DNA of 33,613 nt, taken from assembly GCA_945897755.1 (NCBI GenBank), contig CAMDGH010000021.1, positions 1 to 33,613 on the forward strand, given 5' to 3'. Below are positions 1 through 16,395 of this stretch, piece after piece; the stretch's first letter is position 1; every line of letters starts with the position of its first letter. Below the pieces are notes generated by a model. That model did not search any database and was not told where the DNA came from. It saw only the letters and a program-made list of their open reading frames with translations. This DNA is from Chryseobacterium gleum. Its GTDB lineage: Bacteria; Bacteroidota; Bacteroidia; Flavobacteriales_D; Crocinitomicaceae. Both the position numbers and the translations under genes were made by a program.

Positions 1-1718
1 TGTTTCAATCGAAATAATAATCCACTTTTCACAAATTTTGAAATATACCCTTCCGCTGTTTTATCTGCAATTTCTAATGATTTAGACACTGCTAAATAAC
101 CTTGTCGATTGAAATACTGAGGAAGATTTGCTAAAAACAATTCACGTTGGTTCTTTTTCATTTTTAATGATGCATCTTCGGGTAAATCTGTAAAAACTTT
201 ACTTGCGTGTCTTACCAAAGTTCTTATTATTTCTAATGCTGAATTGAAATCATTGTCTTGGCAAATTAAAGGCGGTGTCATATCACCTGATTCTAAAATT
301 CTCAAACTTGTGAGAACCATAGCTATTCTAAAAGCGATTAAACCTAAACGACGAACAGTTGCCATATATTCCAAACTTTGGAGTGCGAGGTAAGTATCTT
401 GCAATTCTTTAAAGAATTGATTGAATTGTTCCTCTTGATCTTTTGTTAATTTGAATTGAATTTGTTCTTCTTTTAGCAGTGATTCATATAGCTTAAAAAA
501 GTGTTGACCTAATTCATCAAAATAGCTATCCAAACCATCCTCGTATTTTGATTCAAAAACATTTTTCCATGTTGGTGTTACGTTCATGTAATAGAACATA
601 AATCGACTAAACAAACCATTTTCTGCATTTGGAATAAGTGCTGAAATTTGTTTGGGAGTACCTGATAACAAACAAGCTAAACAAGGGTTGTCAATATCTA
701 CGTATTCTCTATCCGTTCTTCTATAATAACTGATTGTTTCGTGGTGAAAGGCTTTTCGAAAACCATCACTGTAATTACCGTAATCAGATTTGAATGCTTG
801 TGCTAAGGTATCACCTTCCGTTTCAAAAATTAATCCGCTCCCTCGGTTATCATTCAATAATTGAAATGCACCTGTTGCGCTATTATTTGCAGGAATGAAC
901 AACATTTTCTCGGGAGGATGAAGCGGTTTAACAGCGTCTGAACCTTTCTTTTTTGCTTGGTTGTATTCTTGTAATTGAGCATCATATTTTTCACGTAACA
1001 ACTTAGATTCTTCTCTCTTTTTCATGTGGATACGTTGCACTAATTGTTTACAATGTACTAATCGACCTTTACCTGCTGATGCTTGCGCTGTGATAAATAA
1101 AAATAGATTTGCAAAGACTTTCTTACCGTCATAAATCCCAACTATTTTAGGCAGACAAGAACTCAATGAAACGATTGAACCTAACAACAATAAATCTCGT
1201 TCTTCATTACTTGCAGCAACTACAACCACTTTTTGAAGGAAACGAGGAAGTTGCGGAAATATAGTATCTGACAATAAAGGAACATTCACTTTTTCTATCT
1301 CACCTTCCTTGGCATCCTCTATTTCCTTTCTTTCCTCAATGTCTTCATTATAAACATTCAAGCCCGCTTTTTCGCATTGATACAAAAAAGTTTTCATTGT
1401 AATGCCAGCACCTTTTGAATTTAGACAAGCGTTGAACTGCTCATCACATTCTTGTTGATTGTAACTGCTATGGAATTGACTTACTCTATGAAAATATGCT
1501 CTTCCTGCTTCTTCAAATTTATCTGCTAAAGCAAAACCTACATTTCTCCATTCAGTATAGGAAGGAGCGATATCGGTTTGCTTCATTTCAAGTTCATTAA
1601 TGATTTCCTCAAAGTCAGTACAAGATTCATCTTTGAATCCTGTACTGCTGATTGGTTTGATTACTTGAGGATTGGTTTTAATCTCAATCCATTCAAATGG
1701 GTTAAATTCTTTCTTCAT
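1..1718 (-). CDS. PriCT_2 / DUF3987 primase-helicase-like protein (3' end outside window)
   Basis: An open minus-strand frame of 572 codons starts with MKKEFNPFEW and runs off the left edge. Residues about 30-110 resemble the PriCT_2 primase C-terminal domain (EWRNVGFALADKF, GAGITMKTFLYQC). The rest matches the DUF3987 family of helicase-like ATPases found on mobile elements, with a P-loop-like stretch ASAGKGR followed by a segment ending PPEKMLFIPANNSATG. The start overlaps the upstream VirE_N gene by 17 bases, which suggests coupled translation. With that neighbour it probably forms the replication initiation (primase plus helicase) module of the element. The family assignment is from memory of conserved blocks. 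The exact C-terminus cannot be seen. Confidence 0.8.
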   Translation of the reverse strand, partial: MKKEFNPFEWIEIKTNPQVIKPISSTGFKDESCTDFEEIINELEMKQTDIAPSYTEWRNVGFALADKFEEAGRAYFHRVSQFHSSYNQQECDEQFNACLNSKGAGITMKTFLYQCEKAGLNVYNEDIEERKEIEDAKEGEIEKVNVPLLSDTIFPQLPRFLQKVVVVAASNEERDLLLLGSIVSLSSCLPKIVGIYDGKKVFANLFLFITAQASAGKGRLVHCKQLVQRIHMKKREESKLLREKYDAQLQEYNQAKKKGSDAVKPLHPPEKMLFIPANNSATGAFQLLNDNRGSGLIFETEGDTLAQAFKSDYGNYSDGFRKAFHHETISYYRRTDREYVDIDNPCLACLLSGTPKQISALIPNAENGLFSRFMFYYMNVTPTWKNVFESKYEDGLDSYFDELGQHFFKLYESLLKEEQIQFKLTKDQEEQFNQFFKELQDTYLALQSLEYMATVRRLGLIAFRIAMVLTSLRILESGDMTPPLICQDNDFNSALEIIRTLVRHASKVFTDLPEDASLKMKKNQRELFLANLPQYFNRQGYLAVSKSLEIADKTAEGYISKFVKSGLLFRLK

Positions 1719-2289
1719 AATTTTTAATGTATTTTGGGTTGATGTAACAGTTTCTATCGTGGGGAACGAAACAAGCTCTTGAAATATCTTTGCCTGATTT
1801 ATCGACTTTTAAATTGTACTTTATAAGTAAATAATTTTCTATCCCTCTGAAGTAATCAAGATGAGTTGCTTTCATTAAATCAATGGAAACAATCCATTTC
1901 AAACCATCGCCAGAAGGAGAAGTAAATAAAAGTTCGGTTTCAAAGTACTCATCATTCAATAACTGTTGTTTCACTTCTTCAAGATTGGATAATTCATCTA
2001 AATCAATGGTCATTAAACCTGAATGTTTGATTAAACTTTTATCTTCTCTTTTTGAAAATGTGCCCGAGAATGTAACGTAATCAAAATTAGATGCCTTGTA
2101 TTGTTTCGCTTCTTTCTTGTCTGCTATTGCTCTTAATTCTTCTGTTTTATGAGCAAAAGTGACATCACGAATAAAGGTGTACATGTCAAAAAGTGAGATC
2201 GTATCCAATGGAGATGTATTCTTGATTGGAGCTTTGAAATAACTGAATTTTTGCAAAGACCTATCGGTCAAATTATTCGTCGCTTCCAT
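1702..2289 (-). CDS. BT4734-like / VirE N-terminal domain protein (primase-type)
   Basis: This 195-aa protein matches the VirE_N (BT4734-like) family common on Bacteroidota mobile elements. Visible blocks are an acidic strand (LMTIDLDEL, about residues 92-100), a glycine turn (TSPSGDGLKWIV, about 123-134) and a basic stretch near the C-terminus (DISRACFVPHDRNCYINP). These three blocks resemble the DxD, SGxG and RxP motifs of archaeo-eukaryotic primase/PrimPol enzymes, so a primase role is my inference. It overlaps the upstream HTH gene and the downstream DUF3987 gene by exactly 17 bases each. In some relatives I recall this domain fused to PriCT_2; here the parts are on separate, coupled reading frames. 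Confidence 0.75.
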   Translation of the reverse strand: MEATNNLTDRSLQKFSYFKAPIKNTSPLDTISLFDMYTFIRDVTFAHKTEELRAIADKKEAKQYKASNFDYVTFSGTFSKREDKSLIKHSGLMTIDLDELSNLEEVKQQLLNDEYFETELLFTSPSGDGLKWIVSIDLMKATHLDYFRGIENYLLIKYNLKVDKSGKDISRACFVPHDRNCYINPKYIKNYEERI

Positions 2290-2572
2290 GATCTATCTTT
2301 TTTGAAGATGAATAATTGGATTCCAACATCAATTGAATGTCCTCTGTTTTGTAATAGAATTTACCGTTGATTCTGCTAAACGGTAATGTTCGATTATCAC
2401 GCATCGATTGAAGTGTTCGTTTACTGATTTTTAGCAATAACATTACTTCTTGTCCATCCATCCAAGTTTCGAGCAACGTTGTTGATTTGGAGTGTTTCAC
2501 ACTCATAATGTATTCTTTTATGAGTGTGAAATCTTTGGACAATTCTTCCATTAATTGAATAACTTTTATCAT
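2273..2572 (-). CDS. Helix-turn-helix (HTH_17) protein
   Basis: This 99-aa protein has a C-terminal MerR/excisionase-type winged helix. The block WMDGQEVMLLLKISKRTLQSMRDNRTLPFSRINGKFYYKTEDI shows the usual order: 'x-x-Q-E-V' helix, SKRTLQ recognition helix, then a PFS..NGKFYY wing. The N-terminal 35 residues look helical. Such proteins act as excisionases or local regulators on integrative elements. The start codon overlaps the preceding HTH gene in an ATGA arrangement, and the end overlaps the VirE_N gene by 17 bases. Specific target and role are unknown. Confidence 0.75.
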   Translation of the reverse strand: MIKVIQLMEELSKDFTLIKEYIMSVKHSKSTTLLETWMDGQEVMLLLKISKRTLQSMRDNRTLPFSRINGKFYYKTEDIQLMLESNYSSSKKIDHGSDE

Positions 2573-2874
2573 AGCTTAACCCTCCCTTTTTTAAGTAAAT
2601 AATTAGCCGCTTGTTGTTCAATCTCTGATTTGGAAGCACTTCTATTGCTTAATAACCAGTTGTCTATTTCTGTACGTTTGAAATAAATCTTCTTTCCATT
2701 CGGTTTGTAATGCGAAATGGTGTCTGCACTTGTTAGTTTGTAAAGGTGTGAACTTGATATTTCTAAATATTCACATGCTTCACTGAAGCTTAATACTTCT
2801 TTTTGAAGTCTATTTTGTTCTTTTAACAAAGTTTCAATACTCGTTAATCGTTCTAAGATGTTTTCATTTTCCAT
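2569..2874 (-). CDS. Helix-turn-helix (HTH_17) protein, excisionase-like
   Basis: This 101-aa protein begins with a predicted coiled-coil-like helix (NILERLTSIETLLKEQNRL) followed by an HTH_17 domain: LSFSEACEYLEISSSHLYKLTSADTISHYKPNGKKIYFKRTEIDNWL, ending in a basic tail. This leader-helix plus HTH layout is common next to mobile-element primase genes in Bacteroidota. It is the first gene of the four-gene HTH-HTH-VirE_N-DUF3987 unit and overlaps the next gene by four bases. The upstream 229-bp gap holds a possible -7 element and repeats that may be its operator. Confidence 0.75.
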   Translation of the reverse strand: MENENILERLTSIETLLKEQNRLQKEVLSFSEACEYLEISSSHLYKLTSADTISHYKPNGKKIYFKRTEIDNWLLSNRSASKSEIEQQAANYLLKKGRVKL

Positions 2875-3103: not shown

Positions 3104-4504
3104 CTATTTTTTAATACTTTGAACTATTTCTAAAATCTTAGTGTGATTATTAGTTGGTTTTGTATCACTTATTGTTTTGTTATCAAATGTATTTCCATTT
3201 CTAAGAAATAATTTAATTGCTATTAACCAATGACGATTACCAACATTTTTAATTTTATTTTCAGATTTTAATAAAGAAATAAACGACCTCAAATCACCAA
3301 AATCACCTACCCAATCAATTTTACTTGTTGGGATTTTATTCTTAAATACTTTTAGGAAGTCAGACTTTGATTCTAATCTTATACAATTGAAAGAAACCAA
3401 TCTATCAAATAATTCTTTAATAGGTTCATCTGATGTTTGCGCTGCAATCAGTGTGAAGCTTTCTTCAGTTTTTTTGTCATCTTTACTTTGTGTTGCTTGT
3501 AATTTTGGCAAATTAATCGAGTTGAAAGTCGTAATAAATTCCTCCTCGTTTTTTAACCACTGCTTAATTGAATTTATATACGCTTTCTCTTTCTTTTCAA
3601 ATTGAAGCTTATTTTTATCTTGGTTGAGTTTGTATTTGCCTCTTGCTATGTCTAATTGGTGTTTTTGAGAATTTGTGATTTTACCTTCATCAAGTAATTT
3701 AGATGTATCTACTGCATAAAGAACTTTTTTAGTAATTGTATTAAGATAGTCTAATAATACAGACTGAGTAATCAGTTGAACTTTCGCTACACCAGTGTAT
3801 TTATTTTCTACCACTTCCCCATGAATTAACGGAAATGAATTTTCAAATGTTTCCTTTTGATCACTAAATAATTCTAATTCAAATGGAAATATTTTCATCC
3901 ATTTTTCATAAATACTAATCAAAAGGGTGATGTCTGAATTTTTATCTTGCTTTACCTCTCCATATTTAGAAACATAGCTAATAATTTGCTCTCTACGAGG
4001 ATTCATTTCTTTGTTATCAAAGTCTGCAGTTTTCAATAAGTCAAGTAAAAATCTCTTCGCTTGACTAATACCAGCTGGAGCACCACAATCTGATGGGAAT
4101 TGACCAAAACTACCTAAAACATATTCGATGTAACTTGTGATTTCTAAATACCAATCATCACGTTCTATGTTATTGATAGCATGATGATTCATGTAGATTA
4201 CTTTGTTGGCGACTTTATCTCCTAAATCAGAATAATTACCAGCGTAAAACCATTCTTGATTCTTTAAATTCTTATGCAGATCACAACAATTTGGAAATTT
4301 CTTGAAATAAACTTTCATATCAGTTTTCATAATTTCTAAACCATTGCGACAACCCTGACAGCCATCTAAATTGTGTTTACCTTCAAAATGAACTACATCA
4401 AATGGTGGTTCGAATGTTTCTACATCCATGGAAAAAATAGTTTGTCCACAAACATTATGAGTTTGAACGTTGCCTACAAAAAACTGTTTATGTGTTATAT
4501 TCAT
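3104..4504 (-). CDS. Integrase-coupled protein of unknown function, Cys-rich N-terminus
   Basis: I do not recognise a named family. The 466-aa protein has a cysteine/histidine cluster near the N-terminus (C49-x2-C52, then C73-C74-x2-H77 in FPNCCDLHK) that could bind a metal. Its middle is lysine-rich and probably helical (residues about 270-320). The C-terminal 80 residues (IDWVGDFGDLRSFISLL ... HWLIAIKLF) resemble a module I have seen in other Bacteroidota mobile-element proteins. No signal peptide or membrane segment is visible. Its ATG overlaps the integrase stop as TAATG, so the two are translated together. It could assist recombination or be cargo; both are guesses. Confidence 0.6.
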   Translation of the reverse strand: MNITHKQFFVGNVQTHNVCGQTIFSMDVETFEPPFDVVHFEGKHNLDGCQGCRNGLEIMKTDMKVYFKKFPNCCDLHKNLKNQEWFYAGNYSDLGDKVANKVIYMNHHAINNIERDDWYLEITSYIEYVLGSFGQFPSDCGAPAGISQAKRFLLDLLKTADFDNKEMNPRREQIISYVSKYGEVKQDKNSDITLLISIYEKWMKIFPFELELFSDQKETFENSFPLIHGEVVENKYTGVAKVQLITQSVLLDYLNTITKKVLYAVDTSKLLDEGKITNSQKHQLDIARGKYKLNQDKNKLQFEKKEKAYINSIKQWLKNEEEFITTFNSINLPKLQATQSKDDKKTEESFTLIAAQTSDEPIKELFDRLVSFNCIRLESKSDFLKVFKNKIPTSKIDWVGDFGDLRSFISLLKSENKIKNVGNRHWLIAIKLFLRNGNTFDNKTISDTKPTNNHTKILEIVQSIKK

Positions 4505-5598
4505 TATAATTTAATTTTGATAATGTTAGCTGCTTCGATTTTCTTCTTGTCAATTACCTTGCCATAAATTTGTGTGGTTCTCAATTCCTTATGACCAAGC
4601 AATTTTGATACGGTATAAATATCTGTACCCATCGTTAATTGAAGGGTTGCATAGGTATGTCTTGCACAATGGAACGTAATGGTTTTTGAAACTCCACCTT
4701 TCATTACCCATTGTTGTAATTTAAGATTATGCCAAGCACTGTATTTTAAATTACTAAAAACTCTCTCTTCTCCTTCAATTGGATCACCTAATAATTGTCT
4801 TGCTTGTTCTGAAATTGGTAATGTTTCAACTCCTTTTGTTTTCTTCTGTCTAAAACGAATGTAGTAACCTAAATCGTTAGAATGTTGAACTTCTGTCCAG
4901 GTAAGTTTCTCTATATCTGACCATCTTAAACCTGTTAAACAACTAAATATAAAGGCTGTTTTAAGGATTGGAATTTCACAATCTACATCAACCACACTTT
5001 GTAATTCTTCTAATGTTAGGAACTCTCTTTCGGTTTCACCTTCTTTTATACCATCTACTTTTTCAGAAGGGTTTGTTGGGATATACTCGTCTTTGAAAGC
5101 TTGTTTAATAGCCGCTTTGAATTTTGCAAAATAGGAATGTTTCGAATTTTGAGACAGTTTTGCTCCTCCCTTTGTAATTTTCCCTTTGTCTAAATATTCT
5201 CTGAAGTCTTGAACTAACTGAACATCTAACTGACCGAATGTGATTCCATTTGGAGCAAAGTTCTTCAAGTGTTTTAATGTACTATCCCAATTACCGTAGT
5301 TTCCTTGACTATCGAATCTTTTGTTTGCAAGGATTTCAAAGTAAGCGATAAAACTTGCTTTCAGTTTCTCATTATCTCTAAACCCAAAAACTCCGTTTTG
5401 AATCTCAATTTGCCTTTGCGCTCTAATGCTTTCTGCTAACTGTAATGTCTTTTTATTGACTTCTTTTTGTTCTTTACTCGGATTGTTTTCATCTAAATAC
5501 AAACTAAGGTATTCGGTTTTACGAGTCCCTTTATGGTAATAATCTAAGTAAAGGCTTGTTTTACTACCTTTATTTCTTTGTCTTAATGTTACTTTCAT
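4504..5598 (-). CDS. Tyrosine recombinase / integrase
   Basis: This 364-aa protein is a tyrosine-type site-specific recombinase. It has an N-terminal arm-binding region, a SAM-like core-binding domain (about residues 80-180, ending before REFLTLEELQSVV) and a C-terminal catalytic domain. Catalytic residues are visible: Arg in TGLRWSDIEKL, Lys in RQKKTKG, His-x-x-Arg in HCARHTYATL, His in LLGHKELRTT and Tyr in QIYGKV. It has normal length and no frame damage, so it is likely active. It follows the zinc-finger/HTH gene by 7 bases and overlaps the 466-aa gene. Its place behind mnmE suggests it catalysed insertion at the mnmE 3' end. Confidence 0.93.
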   Translation of the reverse strand: MKVTLRQRNKGSKTSLYLDYYHKGTRKTEYLSLYLDENNPSKEQKEVNKKTLQLAESIRAQRQIEIQNGVFGFRDNEKLKASFIAYFEILANKRFDSQGNYGNWDSTLKHLKNFAPNGITFGQLDVQLVQDFREYLDKGKITKGGAKLSQNSKHSYFAKFKAAIKQAFKDEYIPTNPSEKVDGIKEGETEREFLTLEELQSVVDVDCEIPILKTAFIFSCLTGLRWSDIEKLTWTEVQHSNDLGYYIRFRQKKTKGVETLPISEQARQLLGDPIEGEERVFSNLKYSAWHNLKLQQWVMKGGVSKTITFHCARHTYATLQLTMGTDIYTVSKLLGHKELRTTQIYGKVIDKKKIEAANIIKIKL

Positions 5599-5605
5599 TA
5601 GGTAT

Positions 5606-5986
5606 TTATTTAAAGAGTTTTTCTAATTCTTGTCGGTTTATTATTTTCTTTCTTCCAAATTGTTTGAATGGTATTTCACCTCGCTTCAACATTCTTTGTA
5701 TAGACCATCTACTAACTCCAATTAAATCGGAGATTTCATTAATGCTCATAAATTGTTTGTCGTTTAGATCCTGGTGATGAACTGGCTTCCTCCCAACTGT
5801 TTTTTTTGAATTAGCCAATGTAGTTTGCTGTTCAATGAGTGAAGCTTTTATTTTTTCTTCTCTCTGTCTGAGTTTGTAAGCTCTCTTTCTACAAACACTT
5901 GAACAGTTTTTAGTCACCGTCGTTTTAGCTATGAAAATGCTTCCACAGATTGTACAGGTTTTCGGTATTTGTATATTACTACTCAT
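5606..5986 (-). CDS. Zinc-finger plus HTH protein, likely excisionase or int regulator
   Basis: The protein has C11-x2-C14 and C28-x3-C32, a small zinc-finger-like knot, followed by a basic coiled-coil-like helix (RAYKLRQREEKIKAS) and a C-terminal HTH_17 domain (SINEISDLIGVSRWSIQRMLKRGEIPFKQFGRKKIIN). I chose the ATG at 5986 (MSSNIQ, 126 aa). A longer frame starts at 6040, but its extra 18 residues (MMHHNAPYCPMLLHNAPY) are only the translation of five 10-bp tandem repeats. It is first in an operon with the integrase 7 bases downstream, and probably regulates int or directs excision. Confidence 0.75.
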   Translation of the reverse strand: MSSNIQIPKTCTICGSIFIAKTTVTKNCSSVCRKRAYKLRQREEKIKASLIEQQTTLANSKKTVGRKPVHHQDLNDKQFMSINEISDLIGVSRWSIQRMLKRGEIPFKQFGRKKIINRQELEKLFK

Positions 5987-5988
5987 AT

Positions 5989-6038
5989 ATGGTGCGTTAT
6001 GTAGCAACATGGGGCAATATGGGGCATTATGGTGCATC
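5989..6038. repeat. Five tandem 10-bp repeats
   Basis: Five adjacent 10-mers follow ATGKGGCAWY-like pattern: ATGGTGCGTT (5989), ATGTAGCAAC (5999), ATGGGGCAAT (6009), ATGGGGCATT (6019) and ATGGTGCATC (6029). The period is close to one DNA helical turn, so a protein could bind all copies on one face. They sit directly upstream of the chosen start of the zinc-finger/HTH gene and downstream of the int promoter. Confidence 0.8.
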
Positions 6039-6056
6039 ATATCGCCTAATTATGCT

Positions 6057-6139
6057 GCCAACAAAAAAGGCAACAAAATTGAATGTTGGGCAACAATTTA
6101 GCAACAAAAATAGTGATAAAATAGGAAAATGGGCAACAA
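6057..6139. repeat. Five GCAACAA (TTGTTGC) repeats around the int promoter
   Basis: Copies of GCAACAA occur at 6070-6076, 6090-6096, 6101-6107 and 6133-6139, with a variant GCCAACAA at 6057-6064. All are in the same orientation with irregular spacing. The copies at 6101 and 6133 overlap the -7 and -33 elements of the probable int-operon promoter. They could be integrase arm sites, excisionase sites or operators. Confidence 0.75.
6105..6136 (-). promoter_or_regulatory. Promoter of the HTH-int operon
   Basis: The minus strand reads TTG (6136-6134), 21 bases, then TATTTTTG (6112-6105), matching the Bacteroidota TTG / TANNTTTG promoter. It would give a leader of about 110 bases carrying the tandem 10-bp repeats. 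Both promoter elements lie inside TTGTTGC repeats, suggesting repression by a bound element protein. Confidence 0.6.
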
Positions 6140-6204
6140 ATAAAAGAAAAGATTTGTTATAATATATAAGAAAAACAAGTAGTTAGATAAAAAAAGAAAA
6201 GTAA

Positions 6205-6222
6205 CTATTTGCCAATACAGAA
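6205..6222. other. Probable attachment site (attL/attR core) at mnmE 3' end
   Basis: Read in the mnmE direction the last 18 bases are TTCTGTATTGGCAAATAG, encoding FCIGK plus stop. From memory, the SGI1 island core at trmE/mnmE is TTCTGTATTGGTAAGTAA, which is nearly the same. The integrase module begins right behind it. The duplicate copy expected at the other end of the element is outside the window, so the exact core cannot be fixed. Confidence 0.55.
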
Positions 6223-7587
6223 CTTACTAAATATATTACCCAACAAGTCATCCGTAGATATATCTCCTGTAATATTTCCTAAATGATACATGCCTTGTCG
6301 GATATCCATCGCGATAAAATCCCCTGTCGTGCCATTTTCTAATCCTTCGGAAGCTGTTTCTAGTGCGAGTGCTGTTTTTTGTAACTCCTCCACATGGCGC
6401 GCATTCGTCACAATAATCTCTTGTTGAATATCGACTCCTTGTATAATTTGATCTACCATCCAAGAGGATAGTTCCAAAATTCCTTCGCCTGTAAGTGCAG
6501 AGAGGTACATATATGGTACAGAATAAGTTTCTTTAGGATGTATAATGTCAGATTTATTAATCACTAACAATACTTTTTTGTCTGGATTATTTACGCGTAG
6601 TTCAGATGCCCAGGAAGCTACTTCATTTATATCACTGCGAGTTCCATCAGCAAGTAAAAAAACGATTTTAGCTTGTTGTATCTTCTGATGTGAACGCTCG
6701 ATACCAATCGCTTCAATTTTATCACTGTCGGAATCGCTTAATCCTTCACGTATTCCAGCTGTATCTATCAAACGGAATAAGATCCCATCGATATTTAAGG
6801 TTTCTTCAATAACGTCGCGCGTTGTCCCTGCAATGTCACTTACGATTGCACGTTCTTCGCCCAACAATTGGTTCAATAAGGTACTTTTACCCGTATTTGG
6901 TGCGCCAACAATGGCCACTGGAACACCATTTTTTAAGGCGTTCCCTAAATCAAAGGAGCGAATTAATTTTTGAATATACGCCAATACCTCTTTTACCAAG
7001 GCTTTTAGTTCCGAACGATCCGCAAATTCCACGTCCTCTTCTGCGAAATCTAACTCCAACTCTACCAAACTGGCAAAGTGGATTAACTTCTCCCTCAGAT
7101 CACGCAATTCATTGGAAAATGATCCGCGTAATTGGTTCATCGCTACTTGATGAGCATGCTTAGATTGAGAAGAAATTAAGTCTGCAACTGCTTCTGCCTG
7201 AGACAAATCCATTTTACCGTTCATAAAAGCACGCAGGGTAAATTCACCAGGCTGCGCGGTACGACACCCCTTTGCAATCAATAATTGTAAGAGTTGTTGT
7301 TGAATATACGTCGAGCCATGACATGCAATCTCTACGGTTGGTTCGCCTGTAAAACTTTTACCGCCATGCAAGACCGTCAACAGTACCTCATCGATGATGT
7401 CCTCCCCATTTCGAATGCGACCAAAATGTGCAGTATGTGTTTTCACCTGACTTAAATCTTTAGAAAATACAGCTGAAACTAGTTCAAATGCCCTTTCTCC
7501 TGAAACGCGAATTAATGCAATCGCGCCCATCCCATTTGCTGTTGAAAGTGCACAGATAGTATCGTTATTGTGTACGAAATGATTCAT
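6205..7587 (-). CDS. mnmE: tRNA uridine-5-carboxymethylaminomethyl modification GTPase MnmE
   Basis: MnmE (TrmE) works with MnmG to modify the wobble uridine of several tRNAs. The 460-aa protein has full family length. The N-terminal formyl-THF-binding domain starts NDTICALSTANGMGAIALIRVSG. A GTPase domain is inserted in the helical domain with P-loop GAPNTGKS (228-235), DTAG (275-278) and NKSD. The protein ends in the conserved CIGK with the catalytic cysteine. The integrative element appears to have entered at its 3' end without changing the C-terminus. By eye this gene is richer in G+C than the element next to it. It stands alone, 45 bases downstream of the globin gene. Confidence 0.97.
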   Translation of the reverse strand: MNHFVHNNDTICALSTANGMGAIALIRVSGERAFELVSAVFSKDLSQVKTHTAHFGRIRNGEDIIDEVLLTVLHGGKSFTGEPTVEIACHGSTYIQQQLLQLLIAKGCRTAQPGEFTLRAFMNGKMDLSQAEAVADLISSQSKHAHQVAMNQLRGSFSNELRDLREKLIHFASLVELELDFAEEDVEFADRSELKALVKEVLAYIQKLIRSFDLGNALKNGVPVAIVGAPNTGKSTLLNQLLGEERAIVSDIAGTTRDVIEETLNIDGILFRLIDTAGIREGLSDSDSDKIEAIGIERSHQKIQQAKIVFLLADGTRSDINEVASWASELRVNNPDKKVLLVINKSDIIHPKETYSVPYMYLSALTGEGILELSSWMVDQIIQGVDIQQEIIVTNARHVEELQKTALALETASEGLENGTTGDFIAMDIRQGMYHLGNITGDISTDDLLGNIFSKFCIGK

Positions 7588-7632
7588 TTTTTTAAAAAAT
7601 TTATCCCCTAAACTTAAATAATAATTTGTTTT

Positions 7633-7998
7633 TTATAGAATTGATTTACCTCCTTCCGATAATTTGTGGTTTATTGACCATCCAATCAATGTAGCACGTT
7701 GCTTCGCTATTTCTGCTTTTTCACCGGAAAACAGTTGATTAACCGTTCCATGAAATAATTCAAGCCAACGGTCAAAGTGATCCTTATTAAGTTGCATGTG
7801 CATGTGCTTGTCTGTTACATTTGTTGTATATCCTGGCTCATCCAATAAAACGAAAGACCAAAAATAGACCATCTTTGGCATGTGCTCCTTAAAATCAATA
7901 CCCTTAAAAAAGGGGGAGATCATTTCATCTTTTAAAACACGATCGTAAAAAAGCGATACTAATTCTTCTATATCTTGCTTACATTTAATATCACCCAT
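7633..7998 (-). CDS. Group III truncated haemoglobin
   Basis: This 121-aa single-domain protein matches group III truncated haemoglobins (2-on-2 globins): DIEELVSLFYDRVLKDEMISPFF near the N-terminus, the conserved MPKMVYFWSFVLL helix, and HFDRWLELF carrying the probable proximal haem-ligand His (about H74). These proteins bind haem and oxygen or nitric oxide; the physiological role of group III members is poorly known. The gene lies upstream of mnmE in the same direction with a 45-base gap and may be cotranscribed with it. No signal peptide, so cytoplasmic. Confidence 0.88.
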   Translation of the reverse strand: MGDIKCKQDIEELVSLFYDRVLKDEMISPFFKGIDFKEHMPKMVYFWSFVLLDEPGYTTNVTDKHMHMQLNKDHFDRWLELFHGTVNQLFSGEKAEIAKQRATLIGWSINHKLSEGGKSIL

Positions 7999-8188
7999 AC
8001 TAAAACATTGATTTACGGCTTTTAAAAGCTAGGTAAAATTAGTAAAAAGAAGTGCTTTTCCGTGAAAAAGAATAAACAAAGCAAAGAATATATTAAACAA
8101 AATAAAAGGAATTTGAAACTACACTATAATTAGCTTTAAAGACTGAATAATAGAGAAGAATGGTTACATTTACTGCAACAAAATAAAG

Positions 8189-9076
8189 ATGTCTAAAGCA
8201 ACGATTTCTTGGTTATTACTTGCGATTCTTGGGTTGATCTGGGGAAGCTCGTTTATATTAATGAAGCGTGGGATGCATGCAATTGATGGAACACTTTTGT
8301 TTTCTTCAGTTCAAGTTGCTTCATTGAGAATGCTGATTGCAGGTCTTATTTTTCTGCCCTTTTCAGTTTATTTTTTCAGAAAAATAACTGAAATAAAGCA
8401 TTTGCTTTTTTTTGGAATGGTAGGGTTTTTCGGTAATTTTTTTCCTGCATATTTGTTTACCTATGCTGAAACAGGGCTTTCAACTTCTCTTACTGGAATC
8501 CTAAATAGTTTAACGCCCATTTTCACCCTCTTGATTGGATTGATGTTATTCAAAAAGAAGATTCACAAATTACAAGTAGTGGGCCTCTTAATTGCCGCAA
8601 GTGGTGTGTCCGTATTACTTCTAAGTGGGAAAGATGTTTCTTTATCTGGAAGTTACCTCCAAATTAGCGCAGTTGTGGGAGCAACACTATGTTATGCCAT
8701 TTCAGTAAATGTGATTAAATATTCATTAGCAAATTATTCCGCTATCGAAATAGCGTCTATTGCATTTTCACTTACCCTAATTCCCAGTCTTTATATCACC
8801 TTTGATTCAGGCGCGATTCCATTTTTAGAAAAAGAACCTAAAGCAATGGAAGGCCTTTTTTTTATAGGAATTTTAAGCGTTTTTGGCACAGCTATTTCCT
8901 TAGTCCTTTTCAATCGACTAATCGCATTATCATCAACCCTTTTTGCGAGCAGTGTTACCTACTTAATTCCTTTAGTAGCCGTATGTATTGGAATTCAATT
9001 TGGTGAAACAATCAATTATACTCAAGTATTAGGAATGATTGTTATTTTATTGGGGGTTTATTTTAGTAACAAATAA
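8189..9076 (+). CDS. DMT-family transporter (EamA)
   Basis: The 295-aa protein has about ten hydrophobic segments and two EamA repeats. The first begins LLLAILGLIWGSSFILMKRG, typical of the drug/metabolite transporter superfamily; the second starts near residue 150 with VGATLCYAISVNVIKY. Such inner-membrane proteins usually export amino acids or other small metabolites. The substrate here cannot be told from sequence. It is a single gene, divergent from the globin gene and convergent with the DUF2141 gene, whose end is 17 bases away. Confidence 0.9.
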   Translation: MSKATISWLLLAILGLIWGSSFILMKRGMHAIDGTLLFSSVQVASLRMLIAGLIFLPFSVYFFRKITEIKHLLFFGMVGFFGNFFPAYLFTYAETGLSTSLTGILNSLTPIFTLLIGLMLFKKKIHKLQVVGLLIAASGVSVLLLSGKDVSLSGSYLQISAVVGATLCYAISVNVIKYSLANYSAIEIASIAFSLTLIPSLYITFDSGAIPFLEKEPKAMEGLFFIGILSVFGTAISLVLFNRLIALSSTLFASSVTYLIPLVAVCIGIQFGETINYTQVLGMIVILLGVYFSNK

Positions 9077-9093
9077 GACTCATTAAACAAAGT

Positions 9094-9534
9094 CTAATTA
9101 AAATGATACTTTAAAGTGAATTTGATTTTTCTAGAAGAATTCAATAAAACAGCAGCTTTATCAAAAGAAGGTGCAGAAAATCGCTCCCTCACATCGTTAG
9201 ATATAGCATATTTCTCTATAGGAACACCAAGTGCATTTTTATCTAATCGTCCGTTGTTATTTTCATCTAAAAAACCTGCAACTGCATATCTTCCTGGTGC
9301 TAACTTATCAAAAACACATTCAACTGAAGAAGATGAAGGGTTAATTACTTGACCTTTAAAACGACTGTTATGTTTTGGGAAGTTATCTTGTTCTCTATAA
9401 ATACCAACATAAACATTCCCGCGAATATTAGAAACACCTTTAATTTCTATAAATAATGAATGAGTTTGCTCACTACGGAAAGATAAAAATAATGAAGTAG
9501 CAAATAAAAAAAGAAGATTACTAAGAGATAACAT
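9094..9534 (-). CDS. DUF2141 domain secreted protein
   Basis: The 146-aa protein has an N-terminal hydrophobic signal sequence (LSNLLFLFATSLFLSF) and then a DUF2141 domain: IEIKGVSNIRGNVYVGIYRE, a central LAPGRYAVAGFLDENNNGRLDKNALGVPIEKYAIS block and a final FTLKYH strand. The DENNNGRLD piece resembles a calcium-binding loop. It is probably periplasmic or outer-surface and beta-rich; its function is unknown. It follows the small membrane protein gene by 8 bases and seems to end the PGI/PMI-purN operon. Confidence 0.8.
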   Translation of the reverse strand: MLSLSNLLFLFATSLFLSFRSEQTHSLFIEIKGVSNIRGNVYVGIYREQDNFPKHNSRFKGQVINPSSSSVECVFDKLAPGRYAVAGFLDENNNGRLDKNALGVPIEKYAISNDVRERFSAPSFDKAAVLLNSSRKIKFTLKYHFN

Positions 9535-9542
9535 ATCTAAAA

Positions 9543-9773
9543 TTATTTACATATAGAATCTAAGATTATTCTAACTTTAATAGTATTAACGATTGAACTC
9601 GTTTTTTGTTTCATTTGATCTAACTTATTTTTTAAAAAAAATAATAAAATAACTAATAAAACAACATATACAACTACTTTAATGATATATGAGTTTCCAA
9701 ACCTTGGTAAAGTATATTGATTTAAATTGATTTTTTTAATACGACTTTCTTGTTCTTTTTTCTCCTCATTCAT
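9543..9773 (-). CDS. Small single-span membrane protein, unknown
   Basis: The 76-aa protein is not recognised. It has a charged, Lys/Glu-rich N-terminus (MNEEKKEQESRIKKI), one strong transmembrane helix (IIKVVVYVVLLVILLFFL, about residues 29-46) and a basic C-terminal tail that may be helical. Its start overlaps the end of purN by eight bases, and DUF2141 follows closely, so it is likely translated within that operon. The overlap and reading-frame integrity are the main reasons to accept it as a gene. Confidence 0.55.
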   Translation of the reverse strand: MNEEKKEQESRIKKINLNQYTLPRFGNSYIIKVVVYVVLLVILLFFLKNKLDQMKQKTSSIVNTIKVRIILDSICK

Positions 9774-10344
9774 TCCTTGAGTAGACTAAATTTTCTATTA
9801 CTAATGGATAATAATAATGTTCTAATGAAAGCACTTTTTGCATTATCAATTCTGCTGTATCTGTTTCTAGTACTTCGGTGTAAAATTGCGCGATTATTTT
9901 CCCCTTGTCAAATTCTTCTGATACATAGTGAATTGAAGTACCAGTCTCTCTTTCGTTGCCATCTACAACTGCTTGATGCACATGAAGCCCATACATTCCT
10001 TCACCTCCATATTTAGGAAGTAAGGATGGATGGATATTGATTATTTTGTGAGTATACATTTGAATGAATTCTTCCGGAAGTTTTCTCAAAAAACCGGCTA
10101 AAACAATCATATCAATTGCATATGTTGAACATACTGAAGTAAGATAGCCCCTTTCGATAAGCGCTTGATTGGTGCAAATGATTTTATGAATCGGATCCTT
10201 AACCTTTGAAAGAACTGGAGCGTTACTCTTATTACAAAGTAACATCACAATTTCTACAGTTGGGTGATTGTGAAAGTAGTTAATTAATTTACAGGCATTT
10301 GTCCCATTTCCTGAAGCGAAAATTGCTATACGACACTTTATCAT
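9766..10344 (-). CDS. purN: Phosphoribosylglycinamide formyltransferase (PurN)
   Basis: PurN transfers a formyl group from 10-formyl-THF to GAR, the third step of purine synthesis. The 192-aa length is standard. The N-terminal phosphate-binding segment IAIFASGNGTNACKLI is present, as is the catalytic segment INIHPSLLPKYGGEGMYG with N103 and H105. The catalytic Asp is D146 in the EEFDKGKII segment. The gene follows the PGI/PMI gene by 16 bases and overlaps the small membrane protein gene. No other purine gene is nearby. Confidence 0.95.
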   Translation of the reverse strand: MIKCRIAIFASGNGTNACKLINYFHNHPTVEIVMLLCNKSNAPVLSKVKDPIHKIICTNQALIERGYLTSVCSTYAIDMIVLAGFLRKLPEEFIQMYTHKIINIHPSLLPKYGGEGMYGLHVHQAVVDGNERETGTSIHYVSEEFDKGKIIAQFYTEVLETDTAELIMQKVLSLEHYYYPLVIENLVYSRNE

Positions 10345-10360
10345 TCAGTGAAAATTAAAA

Positions 10361-11344
10361 TTACAGTTCGGATAGCTGATTTTTTAAGTCATTAATCACA
10401 TTAATCTCCATCGCATCAACCTTATTTAATTCAGCTAAATAAAGGGAAGCCCAATCAACCAAATGGATTAGATAAATAGACCGCTCTATCATTGAGTTAC
10501 CTTTTGCTTTAATTGTAAAAATATGCGCGGTTTTAGTAGAAATGTACTCTTTTGAAAATATAAATCTTTTTAAATTCCGTTCATTGAGATCTAATGAGTC
10601 AATAAAAACAGCAGCAAAACGATCGTCTCCTCCTCCCCAACCAACTAATTCATTGTGGTTCATTTCAGGTATTAAATGATGAGCGCAAAGCATCTTACCA
10701 TTTTCATTAATCTGTTGTCGAGCTCTAATAGCAACCGCTTCGTAATTTGAAGCAGCATAAATCAAAATAAATTTATCCTTTAAAAAGAGTGCTAATTCAG
10801 AAGCGCGCGTTTTAATTTCAGAAATTGATTCATTCAGTAATAGTGCTGATTTTCCAAACTCTAATAAGCGATCTTTTGAGCAAAATCCAAGGGAAGTGAG
10901 TATAGATAATAGTTGGCCTAATGAAAAAGCCAATGCAGTTCTTGGAGGATTTCCACCGGGAACAAGCATACAATCATATCCACTAGAAGCGCAAAATTCG
11001 GCTAATTTGCCTCCTGTTGTTATCCCTATGATATGAGCTCCTCTCGTCTTTGCTTCTTGGATACTGTATAAAGTCTCTTCCGTGTTGCCAGAGTATGAAG
11101 ATGCTATCACCAAAGAGTGTTTATCAACAAACGATGGTAGTTCATAATCTTGGGCAAGGTATACCGGAACACTTAATTCTTTCTCTAACCACTGAGAAAC
11201 CAATTTACCTCCAATGCCAGAACCACCCATACCACATATCACAATGCTATTAATTTCATTGATAGGCTTAGATAGAGAATACTTAGAAGCTATTTTAATC
11301 GATTCTAAGATATTTGAACTAAATTTAGCAATTAGTTTTTCCAT
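10361..11344 (-). CDS. Bifunctional phosphoglucose/phosphomannose isomerase
   Basis: The 327-aa protein is a SIS-fold sugar isomerase of the PGI/PMI type, interconverting glucose-6-P or mannose-6-P with fructose-6-P. Visible features are the glycine-rich loop ICGMGGSGIGGKL (37-49), the phosphate loop ASSYSGNTEETL (81-92), the conserved GGNPPRTALAFSLG (130-143) and the active-site block PEMNHNELVGWGG. It lacks a signal peptide and is cytoplasmic. It heads the operon with purN. The family name comes from these motifs and length; classical Pgi is about 550 aa and looks different. Confidence 0.88.
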   Translation of the reverse strand: MEKLIAKFSSNILESIKIASKYSLSKPINEINSIVICGMGGSGIGGKLVSQWLEKELSVPVYLAQDYELPSFVDKHSLVIASSYSGNTEETLYSIQEAKTRGAHIIGITTGGKLAEFCASSGYDCMLVPGGNPPRTALAFSLGQLLSILTSLGFCSKDRLLEFGKSALLLNESISEIKTRASELALFLKDKFILIYAASNYEAVAIRARQQINENGKMLCAHHLIPEMNHNELVGWGGGDDRFAAVFIDSLDLNERNLKRFIFSKEYISTKTAHIFTIKAKGNSMIERSIYLIHLVDWASLYLAELNKVDAMEINVINDLKNQLSEL

Positions 11345-11408
11345 AAAAGATTAATTAATATGTTCTTACAAACTTAACTGTTTTTTTTAGAATGTTTAAA
11401 AATGAAAA

Positions 11409-12107
11409 TTAGCTCAATTTATTAACAAAGGCCCCTAAAAAAGCTTCTACTAAAGCTTCATCTGCATTTCCAAACTTGGAGGCATAATCTTCAGTTGCTT
11501 TTTGAATTACTTCATAGGCCTCTTCTCTTCCATAAACATGAGTAATCTCAACATTTTTTGCAGCACCATCAAGGTCTTTATACGTTAAGAAAAAATGCCT
11601 AACTCGATCGATAACCAATTTGGGCATCTCAGATATTTCATTCATTTCCCCATACGCTTGATCGCCTTTCAATACAGCAATAATTTTATCATCTGCTTCA
11701 CCTCCGTCTAACATTCGAAAGCCCCCAATTACTTTAGCTTCACACAAAATATTAGCATGATTAAATTCACGCTCACTTATCACGCAAATATCCAAGGGAT
11801 CTAAATCACCGTCAATATCTGTTCTTCCTGTTTTTTCCCTGGCAAATTCAGCAACAGCTGTATCACAATATGTTTTTGGAATGAAGCCATATAAACAAGG
11901 CATATGATTCGATAATTTTTGAGGTCGATCGACCATAATAAAACCTGACGCTTTATCTATCTCATATTTAACAGCATCCGCAGGAGTGATTTCAATAAAT
12001 GCATTCACAATCGCTGGCGCATTTTTTCCTATTTCAATCCCGTGCCATGGATGAGCAACAAAACGATTTGTTAATGCTTTAGCTAAATTTTTTATTTCTT
12101 CTTTCAT
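11409..12107 (-). CDS. ppa: Inorganic pyrophosphatase, family I
   Basis: The enzyme hydrolyses pyrophosphate and pulls biosynthetic reactions forward. The signature D-G-D-L-D-P-L-D-I-C-V (residues 99-109) carries the metal-binding aspartates. Upstream are YEIDKASGFIMVDR and CLYGFIPKTY, both typical of soluble family I enzymes. The 232-aa length is longer than the roughly 175 aa of E. coli Ppa but usual for the form in Bacteroidota. Read from its own promoter; the PGI/PMI gene follows after a 64-base gap. Confidence 0.94.
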   Translation of the reverse strand: MKEEIKNLAKALTNRFVAHPWHGIEIGKNAPAIVNAFIEITPADAVKYEIDKASGFIMVDRPQKLSNHMPCLYGFIPKTYCDTAVAEFAREKTGRTDIDGDLDPLDICVISEREFNHANILCEAKVIGGFRMLDGGEADDKIIAVLKGDQAYGEMNEISEMPKLVIDRVRHFFLTYKDLDGAAKNVEITHVYGREEAYEVIQKATEDYASKFGNADEALVEAFLGAFVNKLS

Positions 12108-12130
12108 TCTAAAACTTAATTTAATAACAA

Positions 12131-12138
12131 CAAAAATA
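12131..12138 (-). promoter_or_regulatory. Possible -7 element of ppa
   Basis: Minus strand TATTTTTG matches TANNTTTG and lies 23 bases upstream of the ppa start codon. No clear -33 TTG stands 19-22 bases further up, so confidence is moderate to low. Confidence 0.4.
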
Positions 12139-12260
12139 CATTACAATTTTAATAAATTTAAGATATCTTGTCAATTTATATAGTTCGAAGCTGATTTAAA
12201 TGCAAAATCCCATAGGAATTGGAAAAATATACTCACTGGGTTAAAAAACGATTCGATTTT

Positions 12261-13886
12261 TCACTTTCTCAGAACACCAATATTTCCGTGCCCTCTTTTG
12301 GATGTAGAAGACAATAATAATACAATAAAAACAGGAGGAACAACAAAAGTTAGATATACAAGAGGATGAACATAACGCTTTTGATCAATAAAATACAATT
12401 CATTGTTCATGGCTTCAATAAGTTGTGGTTTAATTATCTTTTTATCCCTGTTTTTAACATCAATCGAATTAACTTCTTGTTTATTAATTCTATACGATCC
12501 ATTTTTTTGATTTAAAGTAACATATTCAAAGGTGTTAATTAAGTCTTTTTTTGATTTTGAATACGTTGTAATTGGATCTATTGAAGAGCCATAGGTAATT
12601 AAAAAAGAGGTGTCGTTAAAAAAAATCGCATTAAGGTCTTTAACATTCCAATTGCTGTATTTTTTATACCGGTCTATATTGGTAATCCATTCGATTGTTC
12701 CTTCCCGATTTAACGATATTGTAGTAATATTCTCCTTCTCGCAGTAATAGTTAGTAACACATCCCGTGCTTCCCGAACATGTCGTGGTAGAATAATTATT
12801 CATCCTAGCACAAAAAATGGTTGTATTTGTTGGGCTTGTTAGTGTCTGTTCAATTTGATAATTTGTAGGTAAAGAAACCTCTTCCGACGCTTTTTTAGTC
12901 TTTTTCTTAAAAAAAGACATGTCTTTTCTGTCGGAAATATCGTTTTTAAAAACGTTATCTAATTCTCCTTTTGTGAAAGGATTAAATTTCTCCACCTTAA
13001 TCGCAAGTTGATTGTTTAATTCTTGATAAAAAACGCCATGAATATCTTCTCCTTTTTTATCAAGAAACAAATCACTGTAAAATCCACTAAGCCTAACAGA
13101 GGAATCTGTAAATAAATACTTTAAAGAAATAATTTTTTTGTTTGCAAAATCAGGAGTATAGTTATAAACTGTGTTTGTGCCCGAAACAAAACTATTAAGA
13201 GACTGATTTCTTAAAACGTAAAAAACCTTATTTGAAGATTCAATGTAACTAAAATCAGGTTCAAGATTGGTTTTTTCTAAGGGAATTGAAAATACATTTT
13301 TCTTTAATGCGTTTTCTTTATTTATGGTTTTATAAGATACAACTATGGCTTCTTGAATGTAGTCCGTATGACCTATTGTTATCGGATTTGACTTGACAAT
13401 AAAAAAGGGCGTATTACCAGGATGTTTTTTGAGTTTTACCTCATCAATAATAGTCATGTCTTGAATCAACCGGAGATTAATGTCGTAAATCTGAAAAATT
13501 AACTGATGTTCTTGTTTTGATATTCGTGTCCAAAAAACGAGAATGGTTGAATCAGTTGTAACTGCATTAAAAAATTCTAATTCTTTTAAAAGAGATTGTG
13601 CTATTGTCTTTTTATCAAAACCCTTTAATGAAATGCTGTTTTGAATCCGCATTGTTTTTTTATCGTATGCGATTAACCTAACCTTTTTCATTGGATTAAA
13701 CCCGTAAAAGTTATGTAATACATACACATTATCATGAGTTGAACCTATAATTTCAGCTAAAAAACCATTTGTTTTATTATCATAGTTGACACGATCAGTC
13801 CACGACAATTTAATTTCCTGACTCATTAAAGAGGAAAAAATAAACAAGAAAAAAAAGATGATTTTGTAATGCAATTGAATTTTCAT
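12261..13886 (-). CDS. Secreted, C-terminally anchored protein of unknown function
   Basis: I do not recognise this 541-aa protein. It starts with a clear signal peptide (KIIFFFLFIFSSLMSQE, cleavage likely after SLMSQ or nearby). The long middle alternates short beta-like strands and turns, with repeated phrases such as LIAYDKKTMRI and TISLNREGTIEWITNID, which would fit a beta-propeller. A Cys-rich patch (TTTCSGSTGCVTNYYC) is present near residue 370. The C-terminus has one hydrophobic helix (YLTFVVPPVFIVLLL) followed by a basic tail, so the body is probably in the periplasm and anchored in the inner membrane. It is monocistronic and divergent from the peroxiredoxin gene. Confidence 0.65.
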   Translation of the reverse strand: MKIQLHYKIIFFFLFIFSSLMSQEIKLSWTDRVNYDNKTNGFLAEIIGSTHDNVYVLHNFYGFNPMKKVRLIAYDKKTMRIQNSISLKGFDKKTIAQSLLKELEFFNAVTTDSTILVFWTRISKQEHQLIFQIYDINLRLIQDMTIIDEVKLKKHPGNTPFFIVKSNPITIGHTDYIQEAIVVSYKTINKENALKKNVFSIPLEKTNLEPDFSYIESSNKVFYVLRNQSLNSFVSGTNTVYNYTPDFANKKIISLKYLFTDSSVRLSGFYSDLFLDKKGEDIHGVFYQELNNQLAIKVEKFNPFTKGELDNVFKNDISDRKDMSFFKKKTKKASEEVSLPTNYQIEQTLTSPTNTTIFCARMNNYSTTTCSGSTGCVTNYYCEKENITTISLNREGTIEWITNIDRYKKYSNWNVKDLNAIFFNDTSFLITYGSSIDPITTYSKSKKDLINTFEYVTLNQKNGSYRINKQEVNSIDVKNRDKKIIKPQLIEAMNNELYFIDQKRYVHPLVYLTFVVPPVFIVLLLSSTSKRGHGNIGVLRK

Positions 13887-13925
13887 TTTTTTTTAAATTT
13901 AAGTATGCTAAAATAACTAATCTAA

Positions 13926-13940
13926 TTCATGATGCATGAA
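13926..13940. promoter_or_regulatory. Inverted repeat upstream of peroxiredoxin gene
   Basis: TTCATG-ATG-CATGAA is a perfect 6-bp inverted repeat with a 3-bp spacer. It lies 13 to 27 bases upstream of the possible -7 element, where a -33 would be expected. It may be an operator for the peroxiredoxin or the divergent gene. The regulator is unknown. Confidence 0.4.
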
Positions 13941-13952
13941 CATTTGAATTAC

Positions 13953-13960
13953 TACTTTTG
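13953..13960 (+). promoter_or_regulatory. Possible -7 element of peroxiredoxin gene
   Basis: TACTTTTG fits TANNTTTG and lies 35 bases upstream of the start codon. A consensus -33 is missing; an inverted repeat occupies that place, which would suit an activator-dependent promoter. Confidence 0.45.
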
Positions 13961-13995
13961 TTAAGGTAATAATCAAATTTAAAATTTTAAACATT

Positions 13996-14628
13996 ATGAG
14001 TGTATTAGTTGGTAAAAAAGCACCGCATTTTTCAGCTTCAGCTGTTGTAAATGGAGGTACTATTGTAAATGGTTTTTCTTTAGATCAATTTATTGGGAAA
14101 AATCCTGTTTTGTTTTTTTTCTACCCAAAAGACTTCACCTTTGTTTGTCCATCCGAACTTCATGCTTTTCAAGATAAGTTAGCAGATTTCGAAAAAAGAG
14201 GCACAAAAGTGGTAGCATGTTCTACTGACACTGAAGAGTCTCATTGGGGATGGCTTCAGGTACCTAAAAATAAAGGAGGTATTGAAGGTGTTACTTACCC
14301 AATCGTTGCTGATACATCTAAAACCATTTCTGAAGCATTTGGAGTTTTAGCTGGAGAATATGATTACGATATTGATGGTAACTTAGTTGCCAATGGACCA
14401 ATGATTGCTTACAGAGGATTGTTCTTAATTGACAAAAATGGCGTAGTTATGCACCAATTGGTAAATAATTTCCCATTAGGCCGTAATGTTGACGAGGCTT
14501 TAAGGATGGTAGATGCATTACAATTTTTCGAAGAAAACGGAGAAGTGTGCCCTGCAAACTGGACAAAAGGTGATGAAGGAATGAAAGCATCTTTTGAAGG
14601 GGTTGCTGATTATTTGTCAAAGCACTAA
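13996..14628 (+). CDS. Typical 2-Cys peroxiredoxin (AhpC/TSA)
   Basis: The 210-aa enzyme reduces hydrogen peroxide, organic peroxides and possibly peroxynitrite. The peroxidatic Cys is C51 in FYPKDFTFVCPSELHAF; the resolving Cys is C185 in GEVCPANW. The catalytic-site Arg/Thr context (T48 of FTFVC) is intact. The C-terminus ends ADYLSKH without the YF motif of peroxide-sensitive eukaryotic enzymes, which suggests a robust form. It is cytoplasmic, has a single-gene transcript with a strong terminator after it, and no AhpF neighbour, so a thioredoxin or other reductant is likely. Confidence 0.93.
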   Translation: MSVLVGKKAPHFSASAVVNGGTIVNGFSLDQFIGKNPVLFFFYPKDFTFVCPSELHAFQDKLADFEKRGTKVVACSTDTEESHWGWLQVPKNKGGIEGVTYPIVADTSKTISEAFGVLAGEYDYDIDGNLVANGPMIAYRGLFLIDKNGVVMHQLVNNFPLGRNVDEALRMVDALQFFEENGEVCPANWTKGDEGMKASFEGVADYLSKH

Positions 14629-14647
14629 TCTTTATTTAAATAAATAG

Positions 14648-14681
14648 AAAAGGGTTGTTTCGTTGAAACAACCCTTTTTTT
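14648..14681 (+). terminator. Intrinsic terminator, peroxiredoxin gene (possibly shared)
   Basis: A 14-bp stem AAAAGGGTTGTTTC / GAAACAACCCTTTT with a 3-nt loop is followed by a T-run. It sits between the convergent peroxiredoxin and Ppx genes and, having an A-run at its other side, could also stop the minus-strand transcript. Confidence 0.9.
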
Positions 14682-14724
14682 ATTTTACCTACGGGTTGAT
14701 TTTGACCTATAGATTCTATCCGTA

Positions 14725-15609: not shown

Positions 15610-15751
15610 GAAAACTTTTTAATAGCGGACTAAATTAACAAAAAAAAGAAGAATTAAGAAAGATGATTCATACATTAATAAAAAATAAATTACCGCTTTT
15701 AAATGCCTTATTTTGTATTTTCGCAGTGACTGAAAACAAAGCGCTACACAA

Positions 15752-16315: not shown

Positions 16316-16319
16316 ATTT

Positions 16320-16364
16320 AAGGGAACTGAATTAAGATAATAAAGATAAGAGTTTCCCTTTTTT
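16320..16364 (+). terminator. Probable terminator after pth
   Basis: AAGGGAA (16320-16326) pairs with TTCCCTT (16354-16360), followed by TTTTG. The 27-nt loop is long, so efficiency is uncertain. Confidence 0.5.
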
Positions 16365-16395
16365 GATTCAACTTCCTGTCTTTTGTCTATTTTTG
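16362..16395 (+). promoter_or_regulatory. Probable promoter of asnS
   Basis: TTTG at 16362-16365 and TATTTTTG at 16388-16395, spaced by 22 bases, fit the Bacteroidota -33/-7 promoter. The -33 box overlaps the T-run of the upstream terminator. The start codon is 38 bases downstream of the -7 element. Confidence 0.5.

Follow-up and report, generated by a model that had tools for sequence, protein, structure and literature searches.

Gene order of the element

The window, the whole 33,613-nt stretch analysed here, carries at one end part of a mobile element that adjoins a host gene (Table 1). The protein under study, called X, is encoded directly 3′ of a tyrosine integrase (int), in a position referred to below as the slot. 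The host ORF at 6205-7587 is presumably mnmE, judging from its sequence. The zinc-finger and HTH_17 protein at 5606-6040 is possibly an excision regulator. The window element leaves the contig inside the DUF3987 gene (window 1-1718). Its primase-like protein (1702-2289) is 195 aa long and lacks the N-terminal part, the protein of relatives such as L064 being about 302 aa.

Table 1. Features of the mnmE-side element in the window
Feature	Position	Strand	Basis
PriCT_2 + DUF3987 helicase-like replication protein, runs off contig	3..1718	-	Pfam; contig end at window position 1
BT4734-like primase N-terminal domain protein	1702..2289	-	Pfam
Second HTH_17 protein	2273..2572	-	Pfam, conserved order
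HTH_17 excisionase-like protein, core gene after X	2569..2874	-	Pfam, conserved order
X, 466-aa slot protein (N-module NA + C-module C1)	3104..4504	-	ORF list; modules by iterated HMMs
C-module C1, residues 345-466, basic (pI 9.55)	3104..3472	-	58/109 slot proteins; AlphaFold2 pLDDT 89.5, pTM 0.83
N-module NA, residues 1-335: beta hairpin, putative metal site, helices	3500..4504	-	17-sequence alignment; AlphaFold2 pLDDT 82.9, pTM 0.72
Putative metal site, residues 44-77 (H44, C49, C52, C73, C74, H77)	4274..4375	-	17-sequence alignment
TAATG overlap, integrase stop/X start	4502..4506	-	Direct reading
Tyrosine integrase, Arm-DNA-bind_5 + Phage_int_SAM_5	4504..5598	-	Pfam; relatives at 74% identity and below
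144-aa zinc-finger + HTH_17 excisionase-like protein between mnmE and int	5606..6040	-	Pfam, PHROGs; same position in most relatives
Host gene mnmE (trmE), presumed; 3′ end towards element	6205..7587	-	ORF; mnmE-like gene upstream of int in 75/80 related loci

Genome contigs were scanned with an alignment of eight integrases, and the best 80 of 434 confirmed loci were taken. Because 80 of the 434 were kept, the survey of the slot covers the closest relatives only. Among these best 80 the recurring order is mnmE, a zinc-finger HTH (Zn-HTH) gene, int, X, two HTH genes, a primase gene and a DUF3987 helicase-like gene. An mnmE-like gene lies upstream of int in 75 of the 80, and competition for this one site is therefore expected. 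In some relatives a Rep_1 rolling-circle protein (L046, 7483-8577) takes the place of the primase and helicase-like genes, which makes the replication module variable too. Behind the helicase-like gene, L037 and L082 carry type I restriction genes as part of their cargo. In L042, AbiD-like and type IIG restriction genes lie between the integrase and X (8471-15007), which means that cargo can enter at the X boundary. No earlier description of this mnmE element or slot was found in the open-licence literature.

X is a core gene, with int on one side and the HTH, primase and helicase-like genes on the other. This place fits a host- or helper-interaction factor, for example in replication, packaging or mobilisation, whose alleles would be swapped along with the host, the helper phage or the helper conjugative element. 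The satellite-like replication module points the same way. So does the lack of an identified conjugation set in the relatives read, with the exception of partition-like and mobilisation-like genes recognised by eye in L114.

Coupling of X to the integrase

The ATG start codon of X (4504-4502, minus strand) has one base in common with the TAA stop codon of the integrase (4506-4504), giving the sequence ATTATAATGAAT. The preliminary description had reported a 466-aa ORF, this TAATG overlap and a Cys/His cluster, all of which are confirmed from the sequence; the cluster consists of Cys 19, 49, 52, 73, and 74 and His 44 and 77, and further cysteines of X include Cys 140 and 374. The overlap would tie the amount of X to that of the integrase, as that description had proposed.

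Within the element family, the coupling to int is conserved as a rule. At least 1500 nt are available downstream of the integrase in 75 of the 80 loci, and a slot ORF was defined as a same-strand ORF of at least 150 aa that starts -100 to +250 nt from the integrase stop. Such an ORF is present in 69 of the 75 loci, and in 59 of the 75 it starts at -4 to +4 nt. By comparison, a same-strand ORF of at least 150 aa follows at -4 to +4 nt in 63 of 577 other ORFs (at least 150 aa, same loci), and the coupling is not a matter of chance. No slot ORF of at least 150 aa is found in the other six loci (L107, L123, L124, L125, L127, and L128). A parallel scan of viral contigs, from which the best 80 of 144 confirmed loci were taken, gave 26 slot ORFs of at least 150 aa, 20 of them without any module. 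The slot rule therefore holds for close relatives of the integrase and not for all distant kin.

The frequency of coupling favours one rival reading, in which X is a recombination cofactor or directionality factor held at a fixed ratio to the integrase by translational coupling. A precedent is the fourth gin gene of the GInts, which is essential for integration and excision according to the accessible part of the source (PMC5385486). However, the six loci that lack a slot ORF of this size argue against such a factor, as do the two or three HTH_17 excisionase-like genes that already flank int. In addition, a Riemerella island integrase with an intN1-like domain excised without any other island gene, as far as the available part of that article describes (PMC6764341).

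Modular architecture of X

Searches of X against Pfam, NCBIfam, PHROGs, and PADLOC gave chance-level matches only, the best at E 0.03. The sole Pfam entry was GEP5 (E 0.031), and the gathering score of DUF6617 (PF20322), 27 bits, was not reached. Six chance-level matches were obtained in the PDB by phmmer (best E 0.36), and PADLOC returned zero matches, showing no likeness to a catalogued defence protein. An AbiTii domain is absent from X according to Pfam and PADLOC. Excisionase and HTH domains are absent according to Pfam, NCBIfam, and PHROGs; the small genes on either side do encode them. X shows no recognisable catalytic motif, and the fold searches do not point to a function. The initial statement that X has no recognised domain thus stands for curated families (Pfam, NCBIfam, PHROGs, PADLOC) and falls for the C-terminal part, which corresponds to the C-terminal region of DUF6617 slot proteins.

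Residues 1-335 form a new module with a putative metal site. The N- and C-modules were modelled separately, each with good confidence (Table 1), and AlphaFold2 predicts the former as a beta hairpin followed by helices. Twelve positions of the N-module, including C52, C73, C74, and H77, are invariant across 17 sequences. H44 and C49 occur without C53 in nine of the 17, and the other eight have C53 and H56 without H44 and C49, which creates a tandem CCxxH. Because these alternative ligand pairs covary, the alignment suggests a metal site, and the N-module probably binds a metal. Foldseek searches of the N-module against the PDB and BFVD gave nothing at E 0.001 or better, and VIA-align of its helical part was uninformative (best Z 6.9, rmsd 4.4, 128 aligned); the lack of a match is not evidence of a new fold. 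The match of L049 to the N-module begins at profile position 92, and the metal-site part is absent.

An iterated profile seeded by the window and L015 finds the C-module C1 in a terminal or near-terminal position at the C-terminal side of 58 among 109 slot proteins. Its matches include DUF6617 proteins such as that of L073, which fits the full Pfam model (1-316, E 4.8e-167); by this profile, X shares the C-terminal module of DUF6617 (PF20322). DUF6617 proteins occupy the same slot behind the same integrase family, and their C-terminal region is homologous to the window C-module, whereas their N-terminal part (NB) shows no relation to the window N-module (NA; hhalign NA vs NB 0.1%). No mention of DUF6617 was found in the open-licence literature. 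With Foldseek, the C-module matched nothing in the PDB at E 0.001, and VIA-align was again uninformative (best Z 2.3, rmsd 4.5, 70 aligned). RteC is a mobile-element protein of Bacteroides conjugative elements, from the same bacterial class. RteC (PF09357) was the first guess for the identity of the C-module and was rejected, with an hhalign probability of 7.2% for C1 vs eight RteC proteins and no Pfam match; a sequence relation between RteC and X was not found.

HMMs applied to the 109 slot proteins distinguish four N types, namely NA (window), NB (DUF6617-like), NC, and ND, and four C types. NA is joined to C1 in the window, L074, and L075, to C3 in L044, L048, and L049, to C4 in L115, and to unassigned C-termini in L010, L042, L046, and L047. 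NB is paired with C1, C2, and C3. Mapped onto a tree of 88 integrases, the types require a minimum of 14 changes (N) and 18 changes (C) when "other" is counted as one state, and the window integrase is placed among NB-C1 elements. X is a chimera whose N- and C-modules are recombined independently of each other within the family. Hydrophobic, membrane-like stretches occur in the ND N-modules of L114 and L121.

By hhalign, no relation among the four C types is detectable (all probabilities below 1%), yet all are basic (median pI 9.2-9.3). This pattern would suit a helper- or host-interaction factor in which the N-module contacts a partner and the basic C-module attaches to the DNA or RNA of the element. 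Basic C-modules would suit a DNA-binding regulator too. X might, for instance, be an immunity or incompatibility repressor among mnmE-site elements, with alleles that diversify to avoid recognising a competitor, and the mnmE-like gene upstream of most relatives of int is consistent with this idea. The failure of Pfam and NCBIfam to detect a known HTH family in X counts against it.

Relatives of the N-module and their neighbourhoods

Among 395 genomes of the phylum, eight match X. Among 395 genomes of the class, 11 match the N-terminal profile and seven the C-terminal profile, and X is considered modular because its two halves differ in distribution. A second phylum search with a larger profile returned the same six genomes. 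No homologue was found when genome contigs and viral contigs were scanned with the single X protein, and a search of phage records gave no match. The plasmid search gave one match, from Hymenobacter, which does not adjoin an integrase.

The phylum and class searches found the N-module in 15 genomes, 14 of whose neighbourhoods were examined (the weak match G491 was left out). The N-module gene is directly 3′ of a tyrosine integrase in seven of the 14 (window, L010, L044, L046, L047, L048, and L049), parted from the integrase by cargo in one (L042) and away from an integrase in six (L011, L012, L013, L014, L043, and L045; L014 lies at a contig start, with little upstream visible). The expectation that homologues always follow a tyrosine integrase, on which a dedicated role beside the integrase had been made to depend, is therefore wrong for the N-module. 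Relatives outside such elements also speak against a factor that serves a helper or host partner.

Some of these neighbourhoods favour another possibility, that X is a conflict protein acting in anti-phage defence, exclusion or immunity. In L013 (8429-11104), the N-module gene overlaps two AbiTii genes, one on its own strand and a second on the opposite strand, the latter in a tail-to-tail overlap of the 3′ ends. AbiTii (PF18864) therefore flanks the N-module gene on both sides, although the two are neighbours only and X itself has no AbiTii domain. The AbiTii/N-module/AbiTii arrangement is possibly an uncatalogued trio. L014 encodes an N-module that carries a PD-(D/E)XK-like stretch at its C-terminal side (PDDEXK_9, E 9.5e-4, below the curated cut-off). 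The gene for this fusion protein comes second in a two-gene unit (37-2300), behind a gene whose product weakly matches HEC-02B. DUF2971 (PDC-S31) and DUF4209 occur in the neighbourhood of L045. In L011, the N-module gene is surrounded by uncharacterised genes (5912-16381), a region that may be a defence island. By contrast, the N-module genes of L012 and L043 are, by eye, among ordinary-looking genes.

The slot itself can hold a nuclease. A DUF1016/YhcG nuclease (Pfam; PADLOC candidate PDC-S02, E 2.4e-138) fills it in L097, starting at -4 nt relative to the end of int. The presence of such a nuclease, from a candidate defence family, supports a conflict role and weighs against both a helper-interaction factor and a regulator. 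On the other hand, PADLOC found no match for X, its best match for ten other slot proteins was at E 0.0053 (PbeC), and two further slot proteins yielded one weak Cas11f match (E 0.0025) and none, respectively.

Exchange and divergence of X

Near-identical elements exchange X as a complete gene, and the DNA breakpoints coincide with the gene ends or lie just outside them. The elements of Winogradskyella thalassocola (L064) and an uncultured Cellulophaga (L111) are 97% identical in the Zn-HTH protein, 99% in int, 93% and 99% in the two HTH proteins, 97% in the primase and 95% in the helicase-like protein, with X at 28% and the host mnmE at 77%. Their DNA homology stops at nt 7097 in both, the last base of the X start codon, and is back 93 and 147 nt past the X stop. 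In a second pair, L075 (window-type NA-C1) and L082 (NB-C1), int is 98% identical and X 26%. Here homology stops about 23 nt past the integrase stop and returns a short way into the following gene, which makes the replaced block slightly larger than X. Among 46 pairs with int at least 95% identical, which are not independent, X is below 40% in four and below 60% in nine.

None of the other element genes compared has diverged as far as X. The median dN/dS of X is 0.136, vs 0.036 for int (96 pairs chosen for identities of 80% or more in int and 60% or more in X); on these values, X is under constraint yet evolves faster.

These observations bear on all the roles considered. A factor fitted to the integrase and its att DNA should not be swapped while int stays 98-99% identical. 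The wholesale replacement of X beside such integrases lowers the weight of a recombination cofactor or recruitment factor, two of the functions put forward at first, and leaves this role improbable. Gene-for-gene exchange suggests an arms-race protein rather than integration machinery. A helper- or host-interaction factor also has to accommodate the exchange of X between elements whose replication genes are 95-97% identical; it ranks next after a conflict protein as the main rival and is possible, if on balance unlikely. Fast divergence is what a repressor that distinguishes competitors would predict, but with the points raised against it above, a regulator appears very improbable.

Comparison with known systems

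The nearest known phenomenon is the psu-int defence hotspot of P4-like satellites (Rousset et al., 2022; PMC9122126, available part). In both cases, a fixed, variable position lies beside the int gene of a mobile element, and its content differs per element, as the accessible portion of the P4 report describes. As in such a hotspot, near-identical elements of the mnmE family have differing content at one conserved position. The X slot differs from the P4 hotspot, as presented in that portion, in being one gene that overlaps the integrase stop, has exchangeable halves and is replaced gene for gene, with a function that is here proposed from its context.

NBU1 orf2 was considered as a possible positional analogue of X and is not claimed as one. 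The GInt operon ginABCD encodes three recombinases and the small GinD, and all four genes are essential (PMC5385486, part of the article). GinD and X are alike as uncharacterised proteins at the end of a genomic-island integrase operon. Unlike GinD, as far as that part of the source goes, X is 466 aa long, accompanies a single integrase and is replaced in elements that keep their integrase.

A proposed conflict protein in an integrase-coupled slot

The preferred reading is that X is a conflict protein, to which we assign a probability of roughly 0.4. It corresponds to the third of the initial suggestions, a hidden defence component. The reading draws on the fixed slot and its coupling to int, the two-way mixing of modules, gene-for-gene exchange, the fast divergence of X, and the defence-like contexts of L013, L014, and L097. 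Restriction systems in the element cargo, together with the AbiD-like and type IIG genes of L042, add to these points, and the P4 hotspot supplies a precedent in the part of that report available (PMC9122126). Its weight is reduced by the PADLOC results, by the lack of a catalytic motif or functional fold match in X, by the ordinary surroundings in L012 and L043, and by the basic C-modules, which suit a regulator as well. The exchanged pairs are also few and not all independent.

On this reading X, an allele of a single-gene cassette that can be exchanged within the core of a Bacteroidota mobile element inserted at mnmE, would shield that element, once integrated, and the host cell from phages or rival elements. 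Re-initiation at TAATG would provide a low level of X whenever the integrase is made. Of its modules, the N-terminal one with the putative metal site could recognise the invader or act on it, and the basic C-terminal one would bind nucleic acid. Allele turnover would mirror changing opponents, as may be the case for the psu-int hotspot of P4 satellites. A more general and more tentative proposal is that of an integrase-coupled immunity slot, in which single-gene conflict systems of Bacteroidota mobile elements, assembled combinatorially from exchangeable N-modules, metal-site or otherwise, and several unrelated basic C-modules, would be re-initiated at the integrase stop and traded one gene at a time among competitors for the mnmE site.

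Known defence hotspots are cargo regions of varied gene content, whereas the position described here is a one-gene slot that overlaps the integrase stop. Such a slot would set the traded allele apart from the recombination machinery. If the proposal is true, the ORF behind each integrase of this kind would offer a simple way to mine conflict proteins. Even if X is a helper-specificity factor, the matrix of modules makes the question directly testable.
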